From NCBI GenBank assembly GCA_905234525.1, contig CAJOIL010000016.1:1-32247 (forward strand): a stretch of DNA of 32,247 nt, read 5' to 3'. Under the pieces are notes generated by a model, which ran no database searches, was not told the origin of the DNA, and saw nothing but the letters and a program-made list of their open reading frames with translations. The position numbers and the translations under genes are program-made. Positions 9,063-28,469 of the stretch are shown piece after piece (position 1 is the first letter of the stretch; the number at the start of each line of letters is the position of its first letter). The stretch comes from an uncultured Lachnospiraceae bacterium. GTDB lineage: Bacteria; Bacillota; Clostridia; Lachnospirales; Lachnospiraceae.

Positions 9063-9116
9063 AGCGCGACAAAGGACGGGTTTAGTGCGACAGGGGGACG
9101 GGTGCCTTGTCGCGCT
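9063..9116. repeat. Palindromic repeat with two internal GCGACA..GGACGGGT units
   Basis: Perfect 10-bp terminal inverted repeats AGCGCGACAA (9063-9072) and TTGTCGCGCT (9107-9116), with tandem GCGACAaaGGACGGGT and GCGACAggGGGACGGGT inside. Overlaps the prfC stop codon. Confidence 0.75.
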
Positions 9117-10685
9117 AGTTCTCACTAAATTCTTCTAATTCAAGTCCTTCATTCCTATCTAACGTCATCTGTATAGACCACTCCTTAGCGAATAGAAGCA
9201 GCGGCCTCTCCTTCATATCCTTGACCTTCTTCATATCACTCGTACCGTTAATAGAGTCAATATCAATATCATCATTAACAATCCATCTTATATATTCATA
9301 CGGCAAATTTTCCATCTTAATCTCGACATTATACTCATTGTTAAGACGATACTTCAGCACATCAAATTGAAGCACACCCACAACGCCGACAATTATCTCT
9401 TCCATACCTGTATTAAATTCTTGGAATATTTGAATAGCACCCTCTTGCGCTATCTGAGTTATACCCTTCATGAATTGCTTACGCTTCATTGTATCCACTT
9501 GTCTAACCCTTGCAAAATGTTCCGGAGCAAATGTCGGTATACCCTCAAATGCAAATTTATCCTTAGCACTCGTAATTGTATCGCCAATAGAGAAAATACC
9601 CGGATCAAAGACACCGATAATATCACCTGCATACGCTTCATCAATTACCTTTCGACTCTCAGCCATCATCTGCTGTGGCTGTGAAAGTCGCATCTTCTTA
9701 TCACCCTGTACATGAGTAACTTCCATATTAGAGTCAAACTTACCCGAACAAATTCGCATGGCGCCTTATTCATATTTGCCTGAATCTTAAATACAAATGC
9801 ACTGAAATCTTCGGAAAACGGATCAATAACTCCAACATCAGATACTCTCGGAAGCGGAGATGAAGTCATCTCCAAGAAGTATTTTAAGAAAATCTCAACT
9901 CCGAAATTAGTTAAAGCCGATCCAAAGAATACCGGCGACAATTCACCCTTGCTTACTGCATCTATATCAAATTCCGCAGATGCACCATCCAAAAGTTCTA
10001 TCTCTTCAACCAACTGTGTCTGTTGTTCTTCACTAATTTCCCCGGTTGATGCGGCTTCATCAATTGATACAACTTTAGTAGTACCTTCCTTAGTACCCTT
10101 CATAGTGTCGGAAAATGTTGTTATCTTATCCTCTCGCCTGTCATATACGCCTCTGAATTCTTTACCGGAGCCGATAGGCCAATTAATAGGGCAAGTCGGA
10201 ATACCAAGCTCCTTCTCAATATCATCAAGTAAGTCGAAGGTATCATTGGCATCCCTGTCCAGCTTATTAATAAATGTAAATATTGGTATATGGCGCATAG
10301 CACAAACCTTGAATAATTTACGAGTCTGAGCCTCTACGCCCTTAGACGCATCAATAACCATAACCGCAGAGTCAGCGGCCATAAGCGTACGATAAGTATC
10401 CTCCGAGAAATCCTGGTGTCCCGGAGTATCCAGAATATTAATACAATATCCGTCATAATTGAATTGAAGAACAGAAGATGTAACCGAGATACCTCTCTCC
10501 TTTTCAATCTCCATCCAGTCAGATACAGCATGTCTTGCAGTAGCCTTACCCTTAACGGAGCCGGCCAAGTTAATAGCGCCACCATAGAGCAGGAACTTCT
10601 CGGTAAGTGTTGTCTTACCTGCATCCGGATGGGATATTATGGCAAATGTTCTTCTTTTTTCGATTTCTTTTTTTATATCTGACAT
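9115..10685 (-). pseudogene. prfC: Peptide chain release factor 3, frameshifted
   Basis: N-terminal ORF (9666-10685; HPDAGKTTLTEKFLLYGGAINLAGSVK, DTPGHQDFSEDTYRTL) and C-terminal ORF (9115-9759; MRICSGKFDSNMEVTHVQGDKKMRLSQPQQMMAESR) are in different frames. Homology breaks exactly at NMNKA / MRICSGKF. Confidence 0.9.
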
Positions 10686-16914: not shown

Positions 16915-18978
16915 CTAAATCTTCATAGCGACATCCCAAGCGCCCCAAATAACCGAACGTAGGTTGCCAACCTTCTTTGCATCGCCGATAAGGTGTACAT
17001 GACGACCCTTTTCAGCCACCGGCATACTATGATATCCGACTGACATAATAACCGAATCAGCCTTAACCTTCGTTAACTTCTTATTCTTCTCTTCTACAAT
17101 AACGTAGTCCTTACCAATCTCCTTTACGCCACTTTCAAGATATACGGGCACGTTATTAGTCTTGAAGCAATCTCTAAGATAGCTTGAATTAGCAAGACAT
17201 AGATTAGGAACAGCCATAAGGTCATTCTTCATCTCAACGATAACAGGCTTCTTACCCTTGCGGAATAAGTCAAGTGCCATCTCACAACCGGTAAGACCAC
17301 CACCGATAATTACTACATTGTCGCCAACCTGCTGTTTCTCAAGGAGATAATCACAAGCGTCCATAGCATACTCATCTGCTCCCGGAATAGGAATATGGTT
17401 AGCCTCCGCTCCCGTTGCAACAACATATTCGTCAGCATCGATATCCTTGATATCCTTAACCTCTGTATTAAACTTAACAGGAATACCTCTCTTCTTAATC
17501 TGACGCTTGTACCACTCAATCAGCTTCTTATCATTCTCTTTAAAATCAGGAGCTGCCGCAGCGATAAATATACCACCAAGCTCATCTGACTTCTCATAGA
17601 TGGTTGGCTCATGACCGCGAATAGAAAGTATTCTTGCAACCTCCATACCACCGATACCACCGCCGATAACCGCAACCTTCTTAGGATTCTTTGTCTTCTT
17701 AAGCCTGTAATGCTTAGAATTCATTGATACAGGATTAATTGCACAACGACACATATTTAAAGAATCATTAAAGTCTTGGTCATTACCGGTACCTTCATGC
17801 TTAGATAAGTTAAAGCATGCCGCATGACAGCAGATACAAGGACGAATATCCTCTTCGTGACCTCTCATCAGCTTAGTAACCCAAGTAGGATCTGCAAGGA
17901 ACTGACGTCCTACTACCATCGCATCAATATCACCGTTCTTAACTGCCTTAGCACCTGCTTCAGGCTGCATTCTTCCTGCACAAAGTACAGGAATATCAAC
18001 AAACTTCTTAATATGTGTAACGTCCTCAAGATTACAATTGAGAGGCATATATTGTGGCGGATGAGCCCAATACCAAGCATCATATGTACCGTTATCGCAG
18101 TTAAGCATATCGTATCCGGCATCCTGCAAATACTTAGCGGCTTTCTCTGACTCCTCCATGTCACGACCGACTTCGATATAATCCTCACCCGGCATAGCTC
18201 CTTCTCTGAAGCCCTTTGTCTTAGACTCTACGGAATAACGGAGTGATACAGGGTAATCTTCACCGCAGGCCGCCTTAATAGCCTGTACTATCTCTACCGC
18301 AAAACGATATCTGTTCTCAAACGATCCACCGTATTCATCAGTTCTTTGATTACAATACTTGAGTGTAAATTGGTCTAAGAGATATCCCTCATGAACAGCA
18401 TGAACCTCTACACCATCAACACCGGCTTCTTTACAAAGTCTTGATGTCTCTGCAAATGCGTAAACAATCTCATCAATCTCTTTCTTGGTAATCTCTCTTG
18501 CTGTTACATCATCAGCCCATCTGTTAGGTGAAACCGAAGGAGCCGCTGTAAGATACTCAGGATCGATAACAGGCTTTGCAAGGTAATGCAATGGCTTATT
18601 CTTAGCAAGTAATGCAAGCGTATCAGATAACGCCATTGAACGACCAAATCCGGCTGTCATCTGGATAAACAGCTTAGCACCCGTAGCATGTACCTGATCC
18701 ATAAATTCCGCTAACTGCTCGAATTTCTTCTTGTTCTGATATAACCATCTGCGTCCTAAAACATCTCTTACCGGCGCAATACCCGGAATTATAAGACCGC
18801 AGTTATTATCTGCAATCTTCTTAAGCAGCTTAGCCGCTTCCTTATCAAAATGATTCGGCTCCATCCAACCAAACAGACATGTACCGCCCATTGGTGCAAG
18901 AACTATCCTGTTCTTGATTGTAAGATCCCTTATCTTCCATTCGGTAAATAAAGGTTCATACTCTTTGTTCATTGGCAT
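16915..18978 (-). CDS. Old Yellow Enzyme / 2-enoate reductase-like NADH:flavin oxidoreductase
   Basis: N-terminal OYE barrel (KNRIVLAPMGG, VDGVEVHAVHEGYLLDQF, NQRTDEYGGSFENRYRF), CICCHAAC Fe-S region, and C-terminal FAD/NAD domain (VAVIGGGIGGMEVARI, VVIIGGGLTGCEMA). Confidence 0.93.
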   Translation of the reverse strand: MPMNKEYEPLFTEWKIRDLTIKNRIVLAPMGGTCLFGWMEPNHFDKEAAKLLKKIADNNCGLIIPGIAPVRDVLGRRWLYQNKKKFEQLAEFMDQVHATGAKLFIQMTAGFGRSMALSDTLALLAKNKPLHYLAKPVIDPEYLTAAPSVSPNRWADDVTAREITKKEIDEIVYAFAETSRLCKEAGVDGVEVHAVHEGYLLDQFTLKYCNQRTDEYGGSFENRYRFAVEIVQAIKAACGEDYPVSLRYSVESKTKGFREGAMPGEDYIEVGRDMEESEKAAKYLQDAGYDMLNCDNGTYDAWYWAHPPQYMPLNCNLEDVTHIKKFVDIPVLCAGRMQPEAGAKAVKNGDIDAMVVGRQFLADPTWVTKLMRGHEEDIRPCICCHAACFNLSKHEGTGNDQDFNDSLNMCRCAINPVSMNSKHYRLKKTKNPKKVAVIGGGIGGMEVARILSIRGHEPTIYEKSDELGGIFIAAAAPDFKENDKKLIEWYKRQIKKRGIPVKFNTEVKDIKDIDADEYVVATGAEANHIPIPGADEYAMDACDYLLEKQQVGDNVVIIGGGLTGCEMALDLFRKGKKPVIVEMKNDLMAVPNLCLANSSYLRDCFKTNNVPVYLESGVKEIGKDYVIVEEKNKKLTKVKADSVIMSVGYHSMPVAEKGRHVHLIGDAKKVGNLRSVIWGAWDVAMKI

Positions 18979-19009: not shown

Positions 19010-19192
19010 TTAAGCAACCTTGATAATAACCCTATTCTCTTCTAAGTCGATATTCGCAATAGTCCCCTTGATGCGTTCAACCTTACCGAAGAGATCTGTA
19101 AGAATTACAGTGTCACCTTCAATTTCAATTGTCTTGGTATTTTCCATTAATAATTTCTTAGATTTCTCTGCATATGCACTGGCCAGACACAT
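19010..19192 (-). CDS. CooT-family small (nickel-binding) protein
   Basis: 60 aa MCLASAYAEKSKKLLMENTKTIEIEGDTVILTDLFGKVERIKGTIANIDLEENRVIIKVA. Matches the CooT pattern MCLA...V.I.GD.V.L.DLFG....v.G.i..iD...n.v.i. Confidence 0.8.
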   Translation of the reverse strand: MCLASAYAEKSKKLLMENTKTIEIEGDTVILTDLFGKVERIKGTIANIDLEENRVIIKVA

Positions 19193-19221: not shown

Positions 19222-19428
19222 TTATAAACTCTGCTTATATAGCTCTTCTGCCTTCTTAAGCTTATCAACTGCAGCTTGAACATCCTTTGCAGCCTCCTCT
19301 GCAAGACTGGCCGCCTCATCGGCTCCTGCCTCTTTGAGCTTGGATGCAATATCATCAAAATCCTCTGCATGATGCTCATTATGATGTATTGTGTGATCCA
19401 TCAATATAATAATCTTATTATCGTCCAT
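19222..19428 (-). CDS. Small His-rich protein, putative metal-handling
   Basis: 68 aa with N-terminal MDHTIHHNEHHAEDFDD and an Ala/Lys/Glu helical tail. Sits between the CooT-like and ACS-like genes. Confidence 0.65.
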   Translation of the reverse strand: MDDNKIIILMDHTIHHNEHHAEDFDDIASKLKEAGADEAASLAEEAAKDVQAAVDKLKKAEELYKQSL

Positions 19429-19429
19429 A

Positions 19430-20143
19430 TCATTTACCCTTGTTCACCATTCCTAAGTGCATCTCTCTCATGCCCTCAACCTCATCGCAGACAGGCTTAA
19501 AGTCACAATGACCGCAGTCTGTTGCAAGTCCGTCATATATATGGGTAAGAGATTTTGTAATGTCATCTGCTTTCTTAGCATACTCACTTAGAGCATTAAC
19601 AGTATCCATATCTGTGATAAATATTATACGTACATTAAGCACGTGGTCTATTGCTTTATATTTATCCAAGTAAGCCTTACCAATCGCCGAGAAATTAATT
19701 CCCTTAGCCTTAGCCTGCTTACTTATTCTAACCTGCTCCTGATTACTGCCGGCGGACACTCTCACCATATATCCCTTCGGATAAACATGATATCTTGCAA
19801 ACTCCATATCACGGATGGCATTATACGCTTCTTCCGATTCACCAATCTCTTCCGTCTTAATAATGACAATACGCGCAAACGGTGTATCAGAGCTCATCTC
19901 GGTAATATCCTTACCTACCAGAAAAATACCGTCTTCATCCATAATATCCGATGTGGTAACAAGCGTATAGTTGGTAGAGGGATTATTCCCTCCGCCAAGC
20001 TCAAATACGCTGTCCTTCATCATAACAAGTTCACTATTCTCATTCACAGGCCAAGACTTCTTGGCATTATCCGTTATATCAACAATGCCTGCTTTCTTAG
20101 TCTCATCAAGCACAGTATTAATGATGCTGTTATATAACTCCAT
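19430..20143 (-). CDS. Stand-alone acetyl-CoA synthase (ACS/CdhC) central-domain-like protein
   Basis: 237 aa. FELGGGNNPSTNYTLV, VGKDITEM, YMVRVSAGSNQEQVRISKQAKAKGINFSAIGKAYLDKYKAIDHVLNVRIIFITDMDTV and DCGHCDFKPVC resemble the ACS beta central region and the start of the A-cluster Cys motif. Confidence 0.65.
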   Translation of the reverse strand: MELYNSIINTVLDETKKAGIVDITDNAKKSWPVNENSELVMMKDSVFELGGGNNPSTNYTLVTTSDIMDEDGIFLVGKDITEMSSDTPFARIVIIKTEEIGESEEAYNAIRDMEFARYHVYPKGYMVRVSAGSNQEQVRISKQAKAKGINFSAIGKAYLDKYKAIDHVLNVRIIFITDMDTVNALSEYAKKADDITKSLTHIYDGLATDCGHCDFKPVCDEVEGMREMHLGMVNKGK

Positions 20144-20158
20144 GATTATTCTCCGTTG

Positions 20159-20325
20159 CTAGTACACCATTTACCAATTACCTTCACATTCTGCTTGCCA
20201 GAATTCCCTGTTACTGCGTTGCTTTCAATCGACGATGCACACGCATCGCCTCTCTCAAGCGCCTTGTAACCGGGAAATTCTGATCTTCGCAATAATGTAC
20301 AGTTAATTGGTGCATGGTGTACTAG
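20159..20325. repeat. Long nested hairpin element with 12-bp perfect terminal inverted repeats
   Basis: CTAGTACACCAT..ACCAATTA / TAATTGGT..ATGGTGTACTAG outer stem, CAGAATT.CCC.GTTAC middle stem, CGATGC-acac-GCATCG apical stem. Confidence 0.85.
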
Positions 20326-20477
20326 AAATTAAAATCAACCTTCTTGCGGTCAAATATCTCATTAACACGACGATATGCCCACTCCATGAGCTTCTGATCC
20401 AAGTTCCAGAAATAAACCGCAAAGAGTATTAATACTACAGCTATAAGAAAGCAAAATAGTTTCTTAATAATCTTCAT
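20322..20477 (-). CDS. Micro membrane protein (51 aa) 3' of the activator gene
   Basis: Hand translation MKIIKKLFCFLIAVVLILFAVYFWNLDQKLMEWAYRRVNEIFDRKKVDFNF*. One TM. Below the ORF-track cutoff. Similar in layout to the protein at 25276-25503. Confidence 0.65.
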   Translation of the reverse strand: MKIIKKLFCFLIAVVLILFAVYFWNLDQKLMEWAYRRVNEIFDRKKVDFNF

Positions 20478-20480
20478 CAG

Positions 20481-21275
20481 TTACTTCACCGATCCTTTCT
20501 GACGTGCGTACTCAGCTGCACCGAGTGCTCCCATAAGCTGTGGGTCAGTCTTAAGCTCTACAACCTTAAGCTTAAGTACTTGCTCGATTGCTTTCTTAAG
20601 ACCATCATTCTTAGCACAACCACCTGTAAGTGTAACAGAATCTGTTGCACCGGCCTTCTTAGCCATAACGAAGCATCTCTTAGCAACTGACATCTCAATA
20701 CCTGCTGCAATCTCATCCATTGCCTTACCTTCACCAACAAGTGTAATAACCTCTGACTCAGCAAATACTGTACACTGTGCTGAGATAGGTACTACATTCT
20801 TAGCGCTAAGTGAAAGTCTTGAGAACTCAGATAATGACATCTCAAATGATCTTGCCATTGCCTCGAAGAAACGTCCCGTACCTGCCGAACATTTATCATT
20901 CATAGCGAAGTTCTTAACAGTTCCGTCATCATCAATAGCGATACCCTTGATATCCTGTCCGCCGATATCAATGATAGCCTTTGCCTTAGGGTCTGTTACA
21001 TGAACGCCCATTGCGTGACAACTAATCTCTGAAATATTCTCATCAGCGAAAGGAACCTTATTACGTCCGTATCCTGTACCGATAAGATAAGCTAAGTCCT
21101 TAGAAGTCTTAAGACCGTCAACCTTGCCTACTACCTCTTCCATTGCTACTTTGGCAGATTCCTCAGCATTAATCTTAGATTTAATTGTTGTGTCTGCCAT
21201 AATCTTACCATTCTCATCAAGAATAATTGCCTTTGTATAGGTACTACCTACATCACATCCTCCGTAATACTTCAT
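20481..21275 (-). CDS. 2-hydroxyacyl-CoA dehydratase activator (HgdC/FldI/BadFG-type ATPase)
   Basis: GGCDVGSTYTKAIILD, IIDIGGQDIKGI, NDKCSAGTGRFFEAMA, ISAQCTVFAESEVI. Two conserved Cys for the bridging [4Fe-4S]. Confidence 0.95.
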   Translation of the reverse strand: MKYYGGCDVGSTYTKAIILDENGKIMADTTIKSKINAEESAKVAMEEVVGKVDGLKTSKDLAYLIGTGYGRNKVPFADENISEISCHAMGVHVTDPKAKAIIDIGGQDIKGIAIDDDGTVKNFAMNDKCSAGTGRFFEAMARSFEMSLSEFSRLSLSAKNVVPISAQCTVFAESEVITLVGEGKAMDEIAAGIEMSVAKRCFVMAKKAGATDSVTLTGGCAKNDGLKKAIEQVLKLKVVELKTDPQLMGALGAAEYARQKGSVK

Positions 21276-21340: not shown

Positions 21341-23119
21341 TTACCAGCTCGCGTCGTCTTCGAAGTCTACAAGTGACGGATCAAGCGGCTCTTCTCTCAT
21401 AACTGTTCTCATATATTCGTTGACCTTCGAGCGCATATCCTTTCTTGATACTGTACGAGGATCCATTAAATCGTGCTCAATCCAGATAAGACGTACGCCG
21501 TGCTCTCTGGCTTGATCATCGAAAAGACCGTTAAGTGTTGACATGTTCTTACAAGATACATGCTGATACATAATTACGATATCAGGCTTCCATATCTCAA
21601 CCTGTCTCCAAAGCTCTGTAAGAACGTGATCGTATCCACCGTTAGTATGGCGTCTCATAACCATTCTCTCATATAGCCTTGCCATATCTCTTAAGGCTTC
21701 TTCCTTATCCTCTGTCTCAAGAGGTCTTGTATAGTTAAGACTCTCCATCTCAACAAGTACGTTGATACCCCAGCAGTTAGCAAGCCAGTTAGAGAAGTTA
21801 GCATAGTAGTGAGCCGGTACTGACCATACGATTGCACGGTGACGCATCTTGCCTCTCCACGGCTCTTCTCTGTTCTCATAGGCTTCCATCATCATCTTGT
21901 CAACCTTCTCGAAGGTATCCATGATACGTGGATCAAGTCCGCCATCCATCTCGTAATTCCACTTGCGGAATAATTCATAACAAGGACCGATAAGCTGTGG
22001 ATAAGGAGTCTGGTTAACTTCCCATTTCTGAAGCTCGTATTGAGTCTCCTTATTGAATCTCTTCATTGCCGTAAAGTATGCATCCCAGTTCCACTTAGCA
22101 CCTGTCTGCTCTTCTATGAACTTGATACAGCCTTTAATATCTTCTACAGCCTCTTCCATGATACTCTCATCTTCATATCTGACAGGAAATGCAAGATGAT
22201 ATGTCGGAAGGTCTTTAAATCTTCTTGATGTATAGCTTGATGCCATAACCGAACCATCACAAGGCATTGAACTTGAAATAAAGCAAGCACCCATATGAGG
22301 TAACGCATCAATAACACATGCTCCCGATTCTGATGTAGGAACCGGACATGTATCTGAAGGAAGTCCATACGACTCAACTGCATCAATATAAGGCATACAA
22401 GCAAGCTGATCAATCTCTGATAATAAGAATACCGGCATAAGCTGATATGGTATTCCGACAAGATCAGGGAAGCCTGCCATAATCTGTGCCATTGTCATCT
22501 CATCAACAAGCACAACCTTCTTAGATAATTCTTCACTGTTACCGCCCTTAACATCAGCCTTCATTAAGAATACAAGATTCTCAGCAACATATCTGAATAT
22601 TGCATAAATAAGCTCGTGATGCATCTTCAGTGCCTTGCCGCGAAGTCCGAGTGTATTCTTGTCCATAAAGCTGTGGCAACAGAAATATGATATCATCCAA
22701 CGATAATGAAGTGCTCCGTTAAGTGCAGGAACTAAGTCTTTGCTGAAGGTTGCAAGAAGCATACCCCACATTCTTGCCCACTCATAGAAATCAACAGCTG
22801 TATCCTTAACACCTCTGAACTCTCTTCGAACGGTTGCCATCTTACCACTTTGATACAATTTACCAAGCTGCTTCTCACCATTCTTAAGAAAATCAACCCA
22901 TTCGGAAGCGTCCATATTCTTGGCAAGATCTGCTTCCTTCTTCCATCTCTTCTTCGTAGCTTTGAAGTCCTTTTTGATATTTGCAGCTACACCGGGCCAA
23001 TCAGTCTCCTTGACCATATCAACAATTATCTTACCGACTTCTTTGAGATTCTCTCCCTGAAGCTTGAAGTTCATATGATCTTTCATTTTGAAAAATTTAG
23101 GATTAGGATATTTGCTCAC
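21341..23119 (-). CDS. 2-hydroxyacyl-CoA dehydratase family protein, large (592 aa) subunit, copy 2
   Basis: GLPSDTCPVPTSESGACV, PCDGSVMASS, NCWGINVLVEMESL, DIVIMYQHVSCKNM. C-terminus MREEPLDPSLVDFEDDASW shared with 25527-27266. Confidence 0.85.
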   Translation of the reverse strand: MSKYPNPKFFKMKDHMNFKLQGENLKEVGKIIVDMVKETDWPGVAANIKKDFKATKKRWKKEADLAKNMDASEWVDFLKNGEKQLGKLYQSGKMATVRREFRGVKDTAVDFYEWARMWGMLLATFSKDLVPALNGALHYRWMISYFCCHSFMDKNTLGLRGKALKMHHELIYAIFRYVAENLVFLMKADVKGGNSEELSKKVVLVDEMTMAQIMAGFPDLVGIPYQLMPVFLLSEIDQLACMPYIDAVESYGLPSDTCPVPTSESGACVIDALPHMGACFISSSMPCDGSVMASSYTSRRFKDLPTYHLAFPVRYEDESIMEEAVEDIKGCIKFIEEQTGAKWNWDAYFTAMKRFNKETQYELQKWEVNQTPYPQLIGPCYELFRKWNYEMDGGLDPRIMDTFEKVDKMMMEAYENREEPWRGKMRHRAIVWSVPAHYYANFSNWLANCWGINVLVEMESLNYTRPLETEDKEEALRDMARLYERMVMRRHTNGGYDHVLTELWRQVEIWKPDIVIMYQHVSCKNMSTLNGLFDDQAREHGVRLIWIEHDLMDPRTVSRKDMRSKVNEYMRTVMREEPLDPSLVDFEDDASW

Positions 23120-24318
23120 TATGCGGCACCTCCTTTCCCTTTACGTATTCTCTTAATCTCAAGTGCTTCAACGAAAGCTTGGAATCTCGTACGAAGCTGA
23201 CCTGAACTACGTACATTGTACGGTCTGTCAATCGAAAGCACGGGCCAATCATATTCTTGCTGTAATATATGAGATGCCAATGCTCTCTCAAATGCCCAGA
23301 AATCACAGAACTTCATCTGCTCATATATGATTCCGTCTGCTTTGTATTCTCTTGCAAGATAATCAGCAGTCTTACGTCTCTGTTGAACCTTCTCTTCACT
23401 CATATATCTTGCACATTCTGATGTCTTCATATAATGACGTACTATCTGCGGCAAGATTTCTTTGTCCTTATCAATAACAATCTCTTCACGACCGGGCTTA
23501 GAGCCATAGCAATATCGATCTGCAACAACAAATGCTCCGGCCTCTTCGATAAGCTTAGTAAAATCAAGATCATCCACTTCAGAGCCAACAACCGCAACTC
23601 TTGCTCGATACCATGGCTTTGGATCAGGCTTACGATTCTTTATCTCTTCCAATGTCTCTTCCAGCTTAGGAAGTATAAGCGATGTCGGACAGCAATATGA
23701 CACAAGAGACAATACGTGAAATTCATATCCTGTAATCGGTGGATTGTCTTTCTTACGCATATCACCAATCTCAGTCATAACACGACACAGCTTATTGTGC
23801 TCTTCTACAGCCTTAAGTAACGCATCATCAGACGTATCTGCGCCACACTTCTCCTCTAATACATCAAGTACGCGAAGACGCATCTGCTTCGTCATAGCTC
23901 TGACTGTATAATCTTCAATCTTATACGGAATGTCCGCATGAGTTACGAAGAAATTCTCCTTATCATTAATCTTAAGAATCTCCATATGCTCATAGCATCT
24001 GTTCATTGCACCGCAAGCATCAACACCGGCAATTCCGTCTAAGAATTGATAGCCGCCTTCAATGCCTCTCTCAAGCAACGTTCTTGCAAATTCACAGGTA
24101 TAATTACTCATGTAATAAGTAGATATATCTATGGATGAAGAGCGTGGTGCACGAAGTCTGACAGAGAAGCAATTATCCACATTAAGAAGAACCTCCGGCA
24201 TGTGGTAACAGGTATAGCCTATTGCTTTCTGCCCATCCTTCTGGGCTTGTCTTACCAGATCATTGTCCGCATTATCAAGTAAATTCTCGAACTCGATCAA
24301 GTATTTTAAATCTTTCAA
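23119..24318 (-). CDS. 2-hydroxyacyl-CoA dehydratase family protein, small (399 aa) subunit, copy 2
   Basis: AIGYTCYHMPEVLLN, CFSVRLRAPRSSS, YYMSNYTCEFARTLLE, DACGAMNRCYEHM, VADRYCYGSKPGRE, DGIIYEQMKFCDFW. Confidence 0.88.
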   Translation of the reverse strand: MKDLKYLIEFENLLDNADNDLVRQAQKDGQKAIGYTCYHMPEVLLNVDNCFSVRLRAPRSSSIDISTYYMSNYTCEFARTLLERGIEGGYQFLDGIAGVDACGAMNRCYEHMEILKINDKENFFVTHADIPYKIEDYTVRAMTKQMRLRVLDVLEEKCGADTSDDALLKAVEEHNKLCRVMTEIGDMRKKDNPPITGYEFHVLSLVSYCCPTSLILPKLEETLEEIKNRKPDPKPWYRARVAVVGSEVDDLDFTKLIEEAGAFVVADRYCYGSKPGREEIVIDKDKEILPQIVRHYMKTSECARYMSEEKVQQRRKTADYLAREYKADGIIYEQMKFCDFWAFERALASHILQQEYDWPVLSIDRPYNVRSSGQLRTRFQAFVEALEIKRIRKGKGGAA

Positions 24319-24337: not shown

Positions 24338-25102
24338 TTAATTAATTATATCAAGACTCTTAAGTGCTTTCCTTGCACCTGTAAGAATCTTAGCATCACT
24401 TGGTAATTCAAAAGAACTCATACCCTCTATGTCATTCTCGACCAAGACATCATCTGCCCCTATTACAGTAAGCAGTGGTATACCGTCAAGCAGACTCTCA
24501 TCAAGTGTCTCGGGATGCAGGATACGATTAAGTACCGCACCGGATTTGTCTGCCATAACGAGCTCTTTGGATACCTTATCTATTGTCTTAATAATCTCAA
24601 TACCTTTGCGGCTCTGGTCAGATACTAACAGTAAATGTGTAACCTTCTCCATTACGCGCCTGTTAATCTGCTCGATTCCGGCCTCGCCGTCAATTACAAC
24701 ATAATCGAATTCTTCAGCAAGCATACTGATAACTTGTCTGAGATATGTATTAATAGCGCAATAACACCCTGCTGCCTCAGGTCGCCCGATTGCAAGAAAT
24801 GCAAATCCCTTATCTTCGTTCATGGCATCAAGCAAACGGAATTTGGCTTCTGCCAATATATCCTGTGTCTCACTCATGCCTTCTGTTACATCCTTGGCAA
24901 CCTTAAGCCTGATATCATCAAGTGTATATTTGGCTTCGACGCCGAGAGCAACGGATAAGCCAATTGCAGGATCGGCATCTATTGCAAGAATCTTCTTATC
25001 CGGAAATTCCTCCGTCAGAATTCTAACAATAGCGGCTGATAAGGACGTCTTGCCTACACCGCCTTTGCCTGATAAGGCAATAACGGTTGATTTATGTCCC
25101 AT
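24338..25102 (-). CDS. CooC-like P-loop ATPase (nickel insertion accessory / MinD superfamily)
   Basis: Deviant Walker A SGKGGVGKTSLSAAIVRIL, IDADPAIGLSVALG, GRPEAAGCYCAINTYLRQVI (CooC CxC), VVIDGEAGIEQINRRV. Confidence 0.88.
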   Translation of the reverse strand: MGHKSTVIALSGKGGVGKTSLSAAIVRILTEEFPDKKILAIDADPAIGLSVALGVEAKYTLDDIRLKVAKDVTEGMSETQDILAEAKFRLLDAMNEDKGFAFLAIGRPEAAGCYCAINTYLRQVISMLAEEFDYVVIDGEAGIEQINRRVMEKVTHLLLVSDQSRKGIEIIKTIDKVSKELVMADKSGAVLNRILHPETLDESLLDGIPLLTVIGADDVLVENDIEGMSSFELPSDAKILTGARKALKSLDIIN

Positions 25103-25275: not shown

Positions 25276-25503
25276 TTAACCAACTGTCCTCTCCTTGACC
25301 TCCGAGTCAGGCATAACATTAGCCTTATCTGTATACGGCGTCAAGGTGTTATCCTTACGCTTCATCTTATCGTAACGAGCAACTGCGTTAGGCTCCCAGA
25401 CATAATATAGGAATTTGCCGTCAAGGTCAAAATAGAACACCAAAAACAGAACAACATATCCTATTCCGGCAATCAATAACAATTTACCAAGAAACTTCTT
25501 CAT
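25276..25503 (-). CDS. Micro membrane protein (75 aa)
   Basis: MKKFLGKLLLIAGIGYVVLFLVFYFDLDGKFLYYVWEPNAVARYDKMKRKDN... Start at 25503 with AGGAGGG RBS is better than the track start at 25533. Confidence 0.7.
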   Translation of the reverse strand: MKKFLGKLLLIAGIGYVVLFLVFYFDLDGKFLYYVWEPNAVARYDKMKRKDNTLTPYTDKANVMPDSEVKERTVG

Positions 25504-25526: not shown

Positions 25527-27266
25527 TTACCAACTAGCATCATCATCAAAATCAACAAGTGTAGGATCGAGCGGTTCTTCTCCCATAACTGTTGTCATAT
25601 AATCATTAATGATTGAGCGAATCTCTTTCCTTGAAACTGTACGCTTATCAGGCAATGCATGAGGAACCCATATAGCGTGAATGTTACGCTTACGGAATTC
25701 ATCCTCGAACATACCCTTGATTCCCTGCATTCCTTTACACTGAAGCTGGTCGTACATGATAACCATATCACAATTGAACTTCTCCATGTAATCCCATAGC
25801 TGGAATATATGCTCGTGACCACCGACTGCCATGGAACGCATCGGAGCAAGCTCATTATATCTTGCCAAATCGTCTAATGCATGCTCATATGTATCGGTAC
25901 GAATTGTCTTATCGAACATAAGTGAGTCCATATTAATAATTGTATTGATACCCCAGCAATTGTATGCCCACGTACACCAGTTAGAATAGTACAGCGGTGC
26001 ACATGACCAAGCAATGGCACGGTGACGAGTCTTAGGGAATGTCTCAATCTTATTCTCAACACACTTATTCAAAATCTTCTTAACATGCGAATCTACTTCA
26101 TGCCAAATCGGTCTGTCACCATCCTGTGAATAGTAGATACGATAAAGTGCCTGTGCAACACCGTTAATCGGATAATAAGGTGTGTTAGCCGCAACATCCC
26201 ATTTCTCACGTTCGAATTCGGTAAGCTCATTCTGAGCCTCTGCATGCTTCTTAAACTCTTCCCAATTAAACGGTTCGCCTGTCTCCTTCTCAATAAACTT
26301 CCAGCACTGCTCAATCTCTTCCATACAATGCTTATGATTCAAAGGATCATCAAATCTCATAGGCTGCGGCATTGCAAAGAGCGGTCTGTCAAGGAACCAG
26401 TCGGTAATAATAGATGTAGCAACCGAACCGTCACAAGCCTCATTACTTGTAACCATAACAGGACTGTAATCAGGATAATCATCCAATACAAAAATTCCCG
26501 ATTCTGCTTGACACATAGGACAAGGATCTGCAGGAAGTCCAATTGACTGCATTGCATCAATATAATTAAGAACCGTCTTGTTATTAACGTGACATGATAC
26601 AAAGTAAGGTATCATCTGAAGAGCAACATCATCAAATCTATCTCTCCATCCGTAGAATATATTACCGGATACTGTCTCATCATGAGCAATCGTCTTCTTC
26701 CAGTATTGATTCTCTTCACCCATATGCAGCTTCTTATCAGCAGAGAACATACGCATGAACTGACGAATAGTCTCACTAACCATTCCACGATAGTGCCATG
26801 CAGAAGCCTTAAGCGCTTCACCTCTTAAGCCTTCCATTCCACGATCGAACCAGTGCATAACCGAAAGGTATGTCTGGCCCATCCAACGATATCTCCATAC
26901 ACCCTTGAAGAATGTAAGCGGTTCATCGCCCTTAAGAATGTCCATAACCATATGAACATAGTTATACATCCATATCATATGAAAATAATAAAAAGTATCC
27001 TTAACGCCACGCCACTCACGATGCTTATAAAGACCTGTATTACCTAAATATAAATCGCCAAGCCTTCTCTCTTCATGTGGCTTACCATATAAGAAATCAT
27101 TCCAAACCTTATTCCAATCACGATTCTCTCTACGCTCCTGAATATCATTGCGCATATCCATTCTCTTATTATGGATTGTACCGTCATTAGCGTCTCTTAC
27201 AACCTTCTTACCAATTTGAACTGCAGAAAACTGATCCAAAAATCCTCTAAGATTAAATTTCTTCAT
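25527..27266 (-). CDS. 2-hydroxyacyl-CoA dehydratase family protein, large (579 aa) subunit, copy 1
   Basis: GLPADPCPMCQAESG, ACDGSVATS, NCWGINTIINMDSL, DMVIMYDQLQCKGM, MGEEPLDPTLVDFDDDASW. Confidence 0.85.
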   Translation of the reverse strand: MKKFNLRGFLDQFSAVQIGKKVVRDANDGTIHNKRMDMRNDIQERRENRDWNKVWNDFLYGKPHEERRLGDLYLGNTGLYKHREWRGVKDTFYYFHMIWMYNYVHMVMDILKGDEPLTFFKGVWRYRWMGQTYLSVMHWFDRGMEGLRGEALKASAWHYRGMVSETIRQFMRMFSADKKLHMGEENQYWKKTIAHDETVSGNIFYGWRDRFDDVALQMIPYFVSCHVNNKTVLNYIDAMQSIGLPADPCPMCQAESGIFVLDDYPDYSPVMVTSNEACDGSVATSIITDWFLDRPLFAMPQPMRFDDPLNHKHCMEEIEQCWKFIEKETGEPFNWEEFKKHAEAQNELTEFEREKWDVAANTPYYPINGVAQALYRIYYSQDGDRPIWHEVDSHVKKILNKCVENKIETFPKTRHRAIAWSCAPLYYSNWCTWAYNCWGINTIINMDSLMFDKTIRTDTYEHALDDLARYNELAPMRSMAVGGHEHIFQLWDYMEKFNCDMVIMYDQLQCKGMQGIKGMFEDEFRKRNIHAIWVPHALPDKRTVSRKEIRSIINDYMTTVMGEEPLDPTLVDFDDDASW

Positions 27267-28469
27267 CTACACCACCTCCTCTTCTTTCGAGGCATTAATT
27301 TTCTTAATCTCGATACTCTCAATAAATGCTTGGAATCTTGTCCTTAACTGACCAACAGCATTATTGACATATTCCTTCTCGATTGAGCATGTAGGAATAT
27401 TATAATCTCTCGGGAAGATTAGCGTATCAATTGTTCTCTCATAGCTCCAATACTCGCAGAACTTCATTGACTCTACAATAATACCGTCTGCCTTGTATTC
27501 ATCTACGAGCTTGGCGATGTAATCCTTCCTCTGTCTCATCGAGTGCTGTTCCATGAATCTGCAGCACTCATTATATTCTAAGTAATGCCTTGCAACTGCA
27601 CGAAGAGGTGTCTCACCTTCTCTTACTTCAATCTCTTCACGTCCCGGAAGAGAACCGTAGCAATGTCTGTCTGCAACAACAAGTGCACCACAATCCTCTA
27701 TCAGCTTAGTAAAGTCAGGGTCATCATTCTCACTTCCGGCAAGAACAACACGTACACGATACGGATTCTTCTCATCCGGCTTACGTGTCTTAAGATCTTC
27801 TAATGTCTCCTTAAGCATAGGAATTATCAAATACTTAGGACAACACAATGAAACAAGCATAATAAGCTGGAATTCATAGCCTGTAAGAACAGGATTCTCC
27901 TTCTTACGATACTCACCTATCTCCTTAATGATACGACACAACTCATTATGCTCTTCAATAGCCTTAAGTATAGCCTCATCAGAAGTATCTATACCGAAAC
28001 GCTCCTTAAGCGGGTCAAGTACATGAGCCTGCAGCTGCGTCTCGAAATGCTCGATTGAATTTTCATTCTTCTTAAATGGAACGTCTGTGAATTCACAGAA
28101 GAAATCAGGATTCTTAATTACATCCATCATTTGTAAATGTTCTTGAAAACGACAAGTAACCGTACAAGTCTCGGTAGCCATCTGAGCGTCAAGGAAATTA
28201 AATCCTCCTTCCATTGCACGCTCAAGAAGACAACGACCATACATACATGTACGATTGCTCATATAATACGTCGCCATATCGGGGCTTGTGCTCCTCGGAG
28301 CTCGAAGTCTGACGGAAAAGCATCCCGGAAGATCCAAAAGCACTTCCGGCATAAAATAGCAGGTATAACCAAGTGCTCGCTTACCATCCTTCTTCGCCTG
28401 CTGAACCAATTCGTTATTAGCCTCTTGAAGCATATCATCATACTTAAGTAAATGCTTAAGATCTCGCAT
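27267..28469 (-). CDS. 2-hydroxyacyl-CoA dehydratase family protein, small (400 aa) subunit, copy 1
   Basis: ALGYTCYFMPEVLLD, CFSVRLRAPRSTS, YYMSNRTCMYGRCLLE, VADRHCYGSLPGRE, DGIIVESMKFCEYW. Collinear with 23119-24318. Confidence 0.88.
   Translation of the reverse strand: MRDLKHLLKYDDMLQEANNELVQQAKKDGKRALGYTCYFMPEVLLDLPGCFSVRLRAPRSTSPDMATYYMSNRTCMYGRCLLERAMEGGFNFLDAQMATETCTVTCRFQEHLQMMDVIKNPDFFCEFTDVPFKKNENSIEHFETQLQAHVLDPLKERFGIDTSDEAILKAIEEHNELCRIIKEIGEYRKKENPVLTGYEFQLIMLVSLCCPKYLIIPMLKETLEDLKTRKPDEKNPYRVRVVLAGSENDDPDFTKLIEDCGALVVADRHCYGSLPGREEIEVREGETPLRAVARHYLEYNECCRFMEQHSMRQRKDYIAKLVDEYKADGIIVESMKFCEYWSYERTIDTLIFPRDYNIPTCSIEKEYVNNAVGQLRTRFQAFIESIEIKKINASKEEEVV

Follow-up and report, generated by a model that had tools for sequence, protein, structure and literature searches.

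The window, a stretch of 32,247 nucleotides from a gut or rumen Lachnospiraceae bacterium, carries an operon on the minus strand that contains a stand-alone homologue of the central domain of acetyl-CoA synthase (ACS), here called mini-ACS. The gene order is HGD-D small subunit, HGD-D large subunit, small membrane protein, CooC, HGD-D small subunit, HGD-D large subunit and HgdC, followed by a 51-aa ORF, mini-ACS, a 68-aa His-containing protein, CooT and an OYE/BaiCD-like flavoenzyme.

Two HGD-D pairs are present. The pair next to HgdC consists of a 399-aa small subunit (23119-24318; PF06050, E 5e-91; nearest PDB match BzdN, 7e-21) and a 592-aa large subunit (21341-23119; PF06050), which folds as HadB/BzdO/MbdO (E to 4e-12), has three invariant cysteines and carries an N-terminal extension of about 200 aa that is helical in the structure model. 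The HgdC-type activase (264 aa; 20481-21275), an ATP-driven electron donor, matches TIGR00241 (E 4e-63) and the PDB chains of MbdQ, HadI and HgdC (best 3e-62). The cluster cysteines are present in this HgdC/HGD-D set. The second pair, also PF06050, comprises a 400-aa small subunit (27267-28469) and a 579-aa large subunit (25527-27266). A third, similar pair is found elsewhere in the genome (contig C8; L189:18573-19999 and L214:1-1331) with no mini-ACS, HgdC or CooC adjoining.

The second pair is followed by a one-TM protein of about 75 aa (25276-25503), which is kept at the same place in relatives, and a putative 51-aa one-TM ORF (20322-20477) lies between HgdC and mini-ACS, where relatives also have small ORFs. 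Both share a 'YFxLDxKL'-like stretch with a third small protein after an HGD-D pair (L214:1309-1611); their sequences hint at membrane tethering.

The CooC-type ATPase (254 aa; 24338-25102) has a P-loop and a C-x-C metal site. Its nearest PDB match is CooC of C. hydrogenoformans (3kje, E 2e-15), with the CYC motif aligned. CooT (60 aa; 19010-19192; PF10133, E 1.9e-17) starts with MCLA and thus contains Cys2, the position that ligates nickel in the R. rubrum protein. The 68-aa protein (19222-19428) lies 1 bp from mini-ACS; no Pfam family was found for it. It contains a short histidine patch (HTIHHNEHH), whereas in L045, L100 and L101 the related proteins at this position carry runs of His at their N-termini. 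The flavoenzyme, a 687-aa Fe-S protein (16915-18978), begins 31 bp after CooT and is kept in L002-L008, L048, L100 and L152. An Rfam scan near the operon for a nickel or other riboswitch gave nothing relevant. Elsewhere in the window, peptide chain release factor 3 (9115-10685) appears to be split into two overlapping frames of 339 and 214 aa by a frameshift or sequencing error.

Homology of mini-ACS to acetyl-CoA synthase

The mini-ACS gene (19430-20143, minus strand, ATG start) encodes 237 aa ending in C210-x2-C213-x5-C219-x9-H229. The earlier note had read this protein as collinear with the central region of ACS/CdhC, and every comparison agrees. Pfam CdhC (PF03598) matches residues 38-182 (E 1.9e-10), PDB ACS chains align over residues 31-192, and a family profile built from 18 diverse homologues matches 13 full ACS sequences (E 2e-13) and, in the PDB, ACS (5e-13), with ACS/CdhC the only family matched. 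The AlphaFold model (pLDDT 81, pTM 0.81) has 23 structure matches below 1e-3, all of them ACS/CdhC. Since these lines of evidence all point to the same family, homology is secure; mini-ACS is a divergent homologue of the ACS central (A2) domain. It scores far under the cut-offs of full-length ACS models. A zinc-ribbon identity was rejected, as no zinc-ribbon family matched in Pfam or structure comparison.

In a tree of the shared domain, mini-ACS and ACS are completely separated with 100/100 support; mini-ACS is therefore an old, separate family and not a fresh truncation of ACS. A decayed, functionless remnant, which truncation relative to ACS might suggest, is ruled out by this deep clade, by residues invariant across 73 sequences and by the conserved operon.

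The terminal C-x2-C-x5-C motif, also described in the earlier note, is invariant in all 73 complete homologues. A histidine follows ten residues past the last cysteine in 69 of them; the other four have R or Q, so that it is not general as a fixed fourth ligand. The CGC motif of the proximal and distal nickel was found in all ACS loci examined and is absent from mini-ACS; the window protein lacks CGC, as had been noted, and has no later cysteine.

The A-cluster [4Fe-4S] of ACS is held by C506, C509, C518 and C528, while mini-ACS has three cysteines only. In a MAFFT alignment, the C-x2-C of mini-ACS falls on C506-x2-C509 with a 4-residue gap upstream; the supported profile alignment ends before the cysteines. 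The third cysteine falls on C528 with the C518 loop deleted, in an ambiguous register; it may instead fall on C518, with the histidine on C528. The AlphaFold model is poor in this region (pLDDT about 50). The mini-ACS cysteines are thus no more than likely to be equivalent to those of the A-cluster.

Distribution and nickel context

Mini-ACS is found in 18 of 200 Lachnospiraceae genera and in Anaerovoracaceae (Mogibacterium and relatives). HgdC adjoins it in nearly all relatives where the contig allows, with CooC and HGD-D nearby. The same core is seen across Lachnospiraceae, Anaerovoracaceae and clostridia that are less closely related. CooC, HgdC, HGD-D and mini-ACS occur together in two remote subtypes. 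A remote subtype shows the order HGD-HGD-HgdC-HgdC-mini-ACS-CooC, in some cases with two acyl-CoA dehydrogenase-like genes upstream. One MAG contains two mini-ACS paralogues: a CooC-mini-ACS-CooT triad with no HgdC or HGD-D adjoining (L009), and an HGD-HGD-HgdC-mini-ACS cluster with the OYE-type gene and no CooC or CooT beside mini-ACS (L048). In Anaerovoracaceae and the remote subtype, many members have no CooT or no His protein next to them. At 25 loci, the cluster also includes an HtpG/Hsp90-like gene (about 630-670 aa; named by eye from its sequence) that precedes cooC; in Anaerovoracaceae loci such as L010 and L013 it sits about 5-7 kb upstream of mini-ACS.

Protein distances of mini-ACS correlate with those of CooC (r 0.96), HgdC (0.92) and the HGD pair (0.75 and 0.82); these values are indicative only, as the proteins have a species history in common and the pairs depend on one another. 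Inside Lachnospiraceae, partial correlations are 0.57 for CooC and 0.49 for HgdC, versus about 0 to 0.1 for the HGD pair. Because its distances track CooC and HgdC and not the HGD pair, mini-ACS would seem to work between the nickel ATPase and the ATP-driven electron donor. No other protein of the set has evolved as fast as mini-ACS (mean identity 0.49 versus 0.84 for HgdC), which fits an accessory role as well as a catalytic one.

The literature treats CooC and CooT as proteins for the maturation of CODH (PMC6006190, PMC13056359), although no CODH is present here: the window's genome, which is 98.7% complete, contains no CODH, full ACS, NiFe hydrogenase or LarA. Of the 200 genera sampled, 26 have CooT. 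In twenty-two of these, CODH and CooT share a contig; the four CODH-less genomes (the window's genome, G407, G479 and G596) have CooT 53 bp to 6.2 kb from mini-ACS. CODH is present in 12 of 28 mini-ACS genomes, and full CODH or ACS coexists with mini-ACS in some (e.g. G161).

Other nickel users are possible in the window's genome, since it encodes an IsrA-like protein, HypA, two HypB and LarB/LarC. The IsrA-like gene, a putative diene reductase, lies on another contig than mini-ACS with its own HypA directly after it (L273:3029-6363). Two tandem HypB-type GTPases (L250:15447-16774) are located apart from these. A LarB-LarC pair (L206:4560-6496, contig C2) is present, while a whole-genome Pfam search found no LarA; this is the nickel-pincer cofactor pathway minus its known user. 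LarB/LarC neighbours mini-ACS in L010 only, so this signal is not conserved. In L013, CbiM/CbiQ/ABC transporter genes come after mini-ACS, together with genes for a metal-sensing repressor whose N-terminus is His-rich and for two HypB-type GTPases. HypA also lies beside mini-ACS in several relatives; it was downgraded as nickel evidence because it follows the IsrA-like gene, which is paired with HypA elsewhere too.

Function of the gene set

We consider it about evenly balanced whether mini-ACS is a nickel/Fe-S partner protein of the HgdC/HGD-D system, loaded by CooC and CooT, and not an acetyl-CoA synthase by itself; this is the reading we favour. The partner protein would be built on the ACS central-domain fold. 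Its three invariant cysteines would probably hold an Fe-S cluster, for which the histidine of most members may be a fourth ligand. Nickel would arrive via CooC and CooT and be stored by the His-containing protein. The HgdC ATPase would push low-potential electrons into the system, a direction of flow that we infer, and the HGD-D pair would be the probable substrate-reducing enzyme. Mini-ACS would contact both CooC and HgdC.

Nickel binding is suggested by the neighbouring genes; finding CooC and CooT in the operon of a genome that has neither CODH nor ACS supports a Ni/Fe-S role. The domain homology, the invariant cysteines, the His protein, the lack of NiFe hydrogenase and LarA, the exclusive association of CooT, the recurrence in two remote subtypes, the co-variation with CooC and HgdC, and the L009 triad also argue for the partner-protein reading. 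Against it stand the absence of CooT or the His protein beside many members, the four substitutions of the histidine, the fast evolution of mini-ACS and the other putative nickel user in the genome (IsrA-like, with HypA and two HypB).

It is possible, if rather doubtful, that mini-ACS is purely an assembly factor, a non-catalytic scaffold or metallochaperone which together with CooC would assemble a Ni-Fe-S or double-cubane-type cluster for HGD-D/HgdC. Mini-ACS is small, has a three-cysteine site and a divergence high for a catalytic subunit, co-varies most with CooC and is its neighbour in the remote subtype and in L009. However, its inheritance follows HgdC almost as tightly as CooC, and it does not track the HGD pair that it would serve.

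An unlikely explanation is that nickel is not involved: mini-ACS would be an Fe-S or zinc protein for HgdC/HGD-D, CooC would help to assemble Fe-S clusters, and CooT together with the His protein would serve another nickel user such as the IsrA-like reductase. This would account for the IsrA-like and Hyp genes of the window's genome, for the IsrA-like and HypA genes that adjoin mini-ACS in several relatives, and for the members that have no CooT nearby. It does not agree with the occurrence of CooT exclusively with CODH or mini-ACS in 200 genera, with the CYC motif retained by CooC, or with the separate contig of the IsrA-like gene and its own HypA.

The earlier note had offered three options, a metallochaperone, an assembly scaffold or a pared-down Ni/Fe-S enzyme. 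The operon context, with CooC and CooT genes that the note did not mention, speaks for nickel and Fe-S. A pared-down acetyl-CoA synthase is the least supported, because CGC and CODH are absent and a search covering 1.52 of 1.85 Mb (82%) of the genome turned up no genes for a corrinoid Fe-S protein. Within that coverage, the corrinoid result also argues against a canonical acetyl-CoA synthase role in this genome. As such an enzyme, mini-ACS would fill the place of ACS in a non-canonical Wood-Ljungdahl route of Lachnospiraceae that have no CODH/ACS, as in Ca. Galacturonibacter soehngenii, for which CODH activity and labelling of the acetate carboxyl group have been described with no CODH/ACS genes present (PMC7000372). 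Those data, the homology to ACS and the CODH-type maturation genes are in keeping with this explanation, but genomes with full CODH or ACS carry mini-ACS too, and we regard it as quite improbable.

Comparison with known systems

The gene set suggests that anaerobic bacteria have an enzyme system, probably a nickel user, that is new to the literature; a literature search found no description of it. Tentatively, it may be a nickel-dependent, ATP-driven reductase in which the HgdC/HGD-D machinery works with a Ni-Fe-S site held in, or built by, the stand-alone ACS domain, and which could explain CO-dehydrogenase or acetyl-forming activity in CODH-less Lachnospiraceae. The set is a concrete candidate for the activity and acetogenic labelling reported in Lachnospiraceae with no CODH/ACS genes (PMC7000372). 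In this gut or rumen bacterium, one free-standing piece of ACS is present although CODH and full ACS are absent.

Mini-ACS shares with AcsB/CdhC (PF03598) the central A2 sequence and fold, and a C-x2-C close to where the A-cluster motif begins. It has no CODH-binding A1 domain, lacks one of the four cluster cysteines, the CGC nickel site and most of A3, and does not require CODH.

As in the CODH maturation set CooC-CooT-CooJ, a CooC with CYC, a CooT and a small His protein occur together in one operon. CooJ, like CooT, is known in published work as a CODH maturation protein. In contrast to that set, the window's genome has no CODH, and the His protein may be CooJ-like in role only by analogy.

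The IsrA-like putative diene reductases with HypA/HypB (PMC10134865) are likewise redox enzymes accompanied by nickel maturation genes in the absence of a known nickel enzyme, and they adjoin mini-ACS in several genomes. They are, however, unrelated flavoproteins with no ACS domain, HgdC or HGD-D.

HadBC/HadI, BzdNOPQ, MbdONPQ and the double-cubane proteins (DCCP) share with the operon an HgdC-type activase and an HGD-D subunit pair of the same folds. The window's system differs in the N-terminal extension of its large subunit and in the addition of ACS-like and CooC/CooT proteins. If the proposed function is correct, a free-standing ACS domain and ATP-driven low-potential electron transfer would join two metal chemistries known so far apart.
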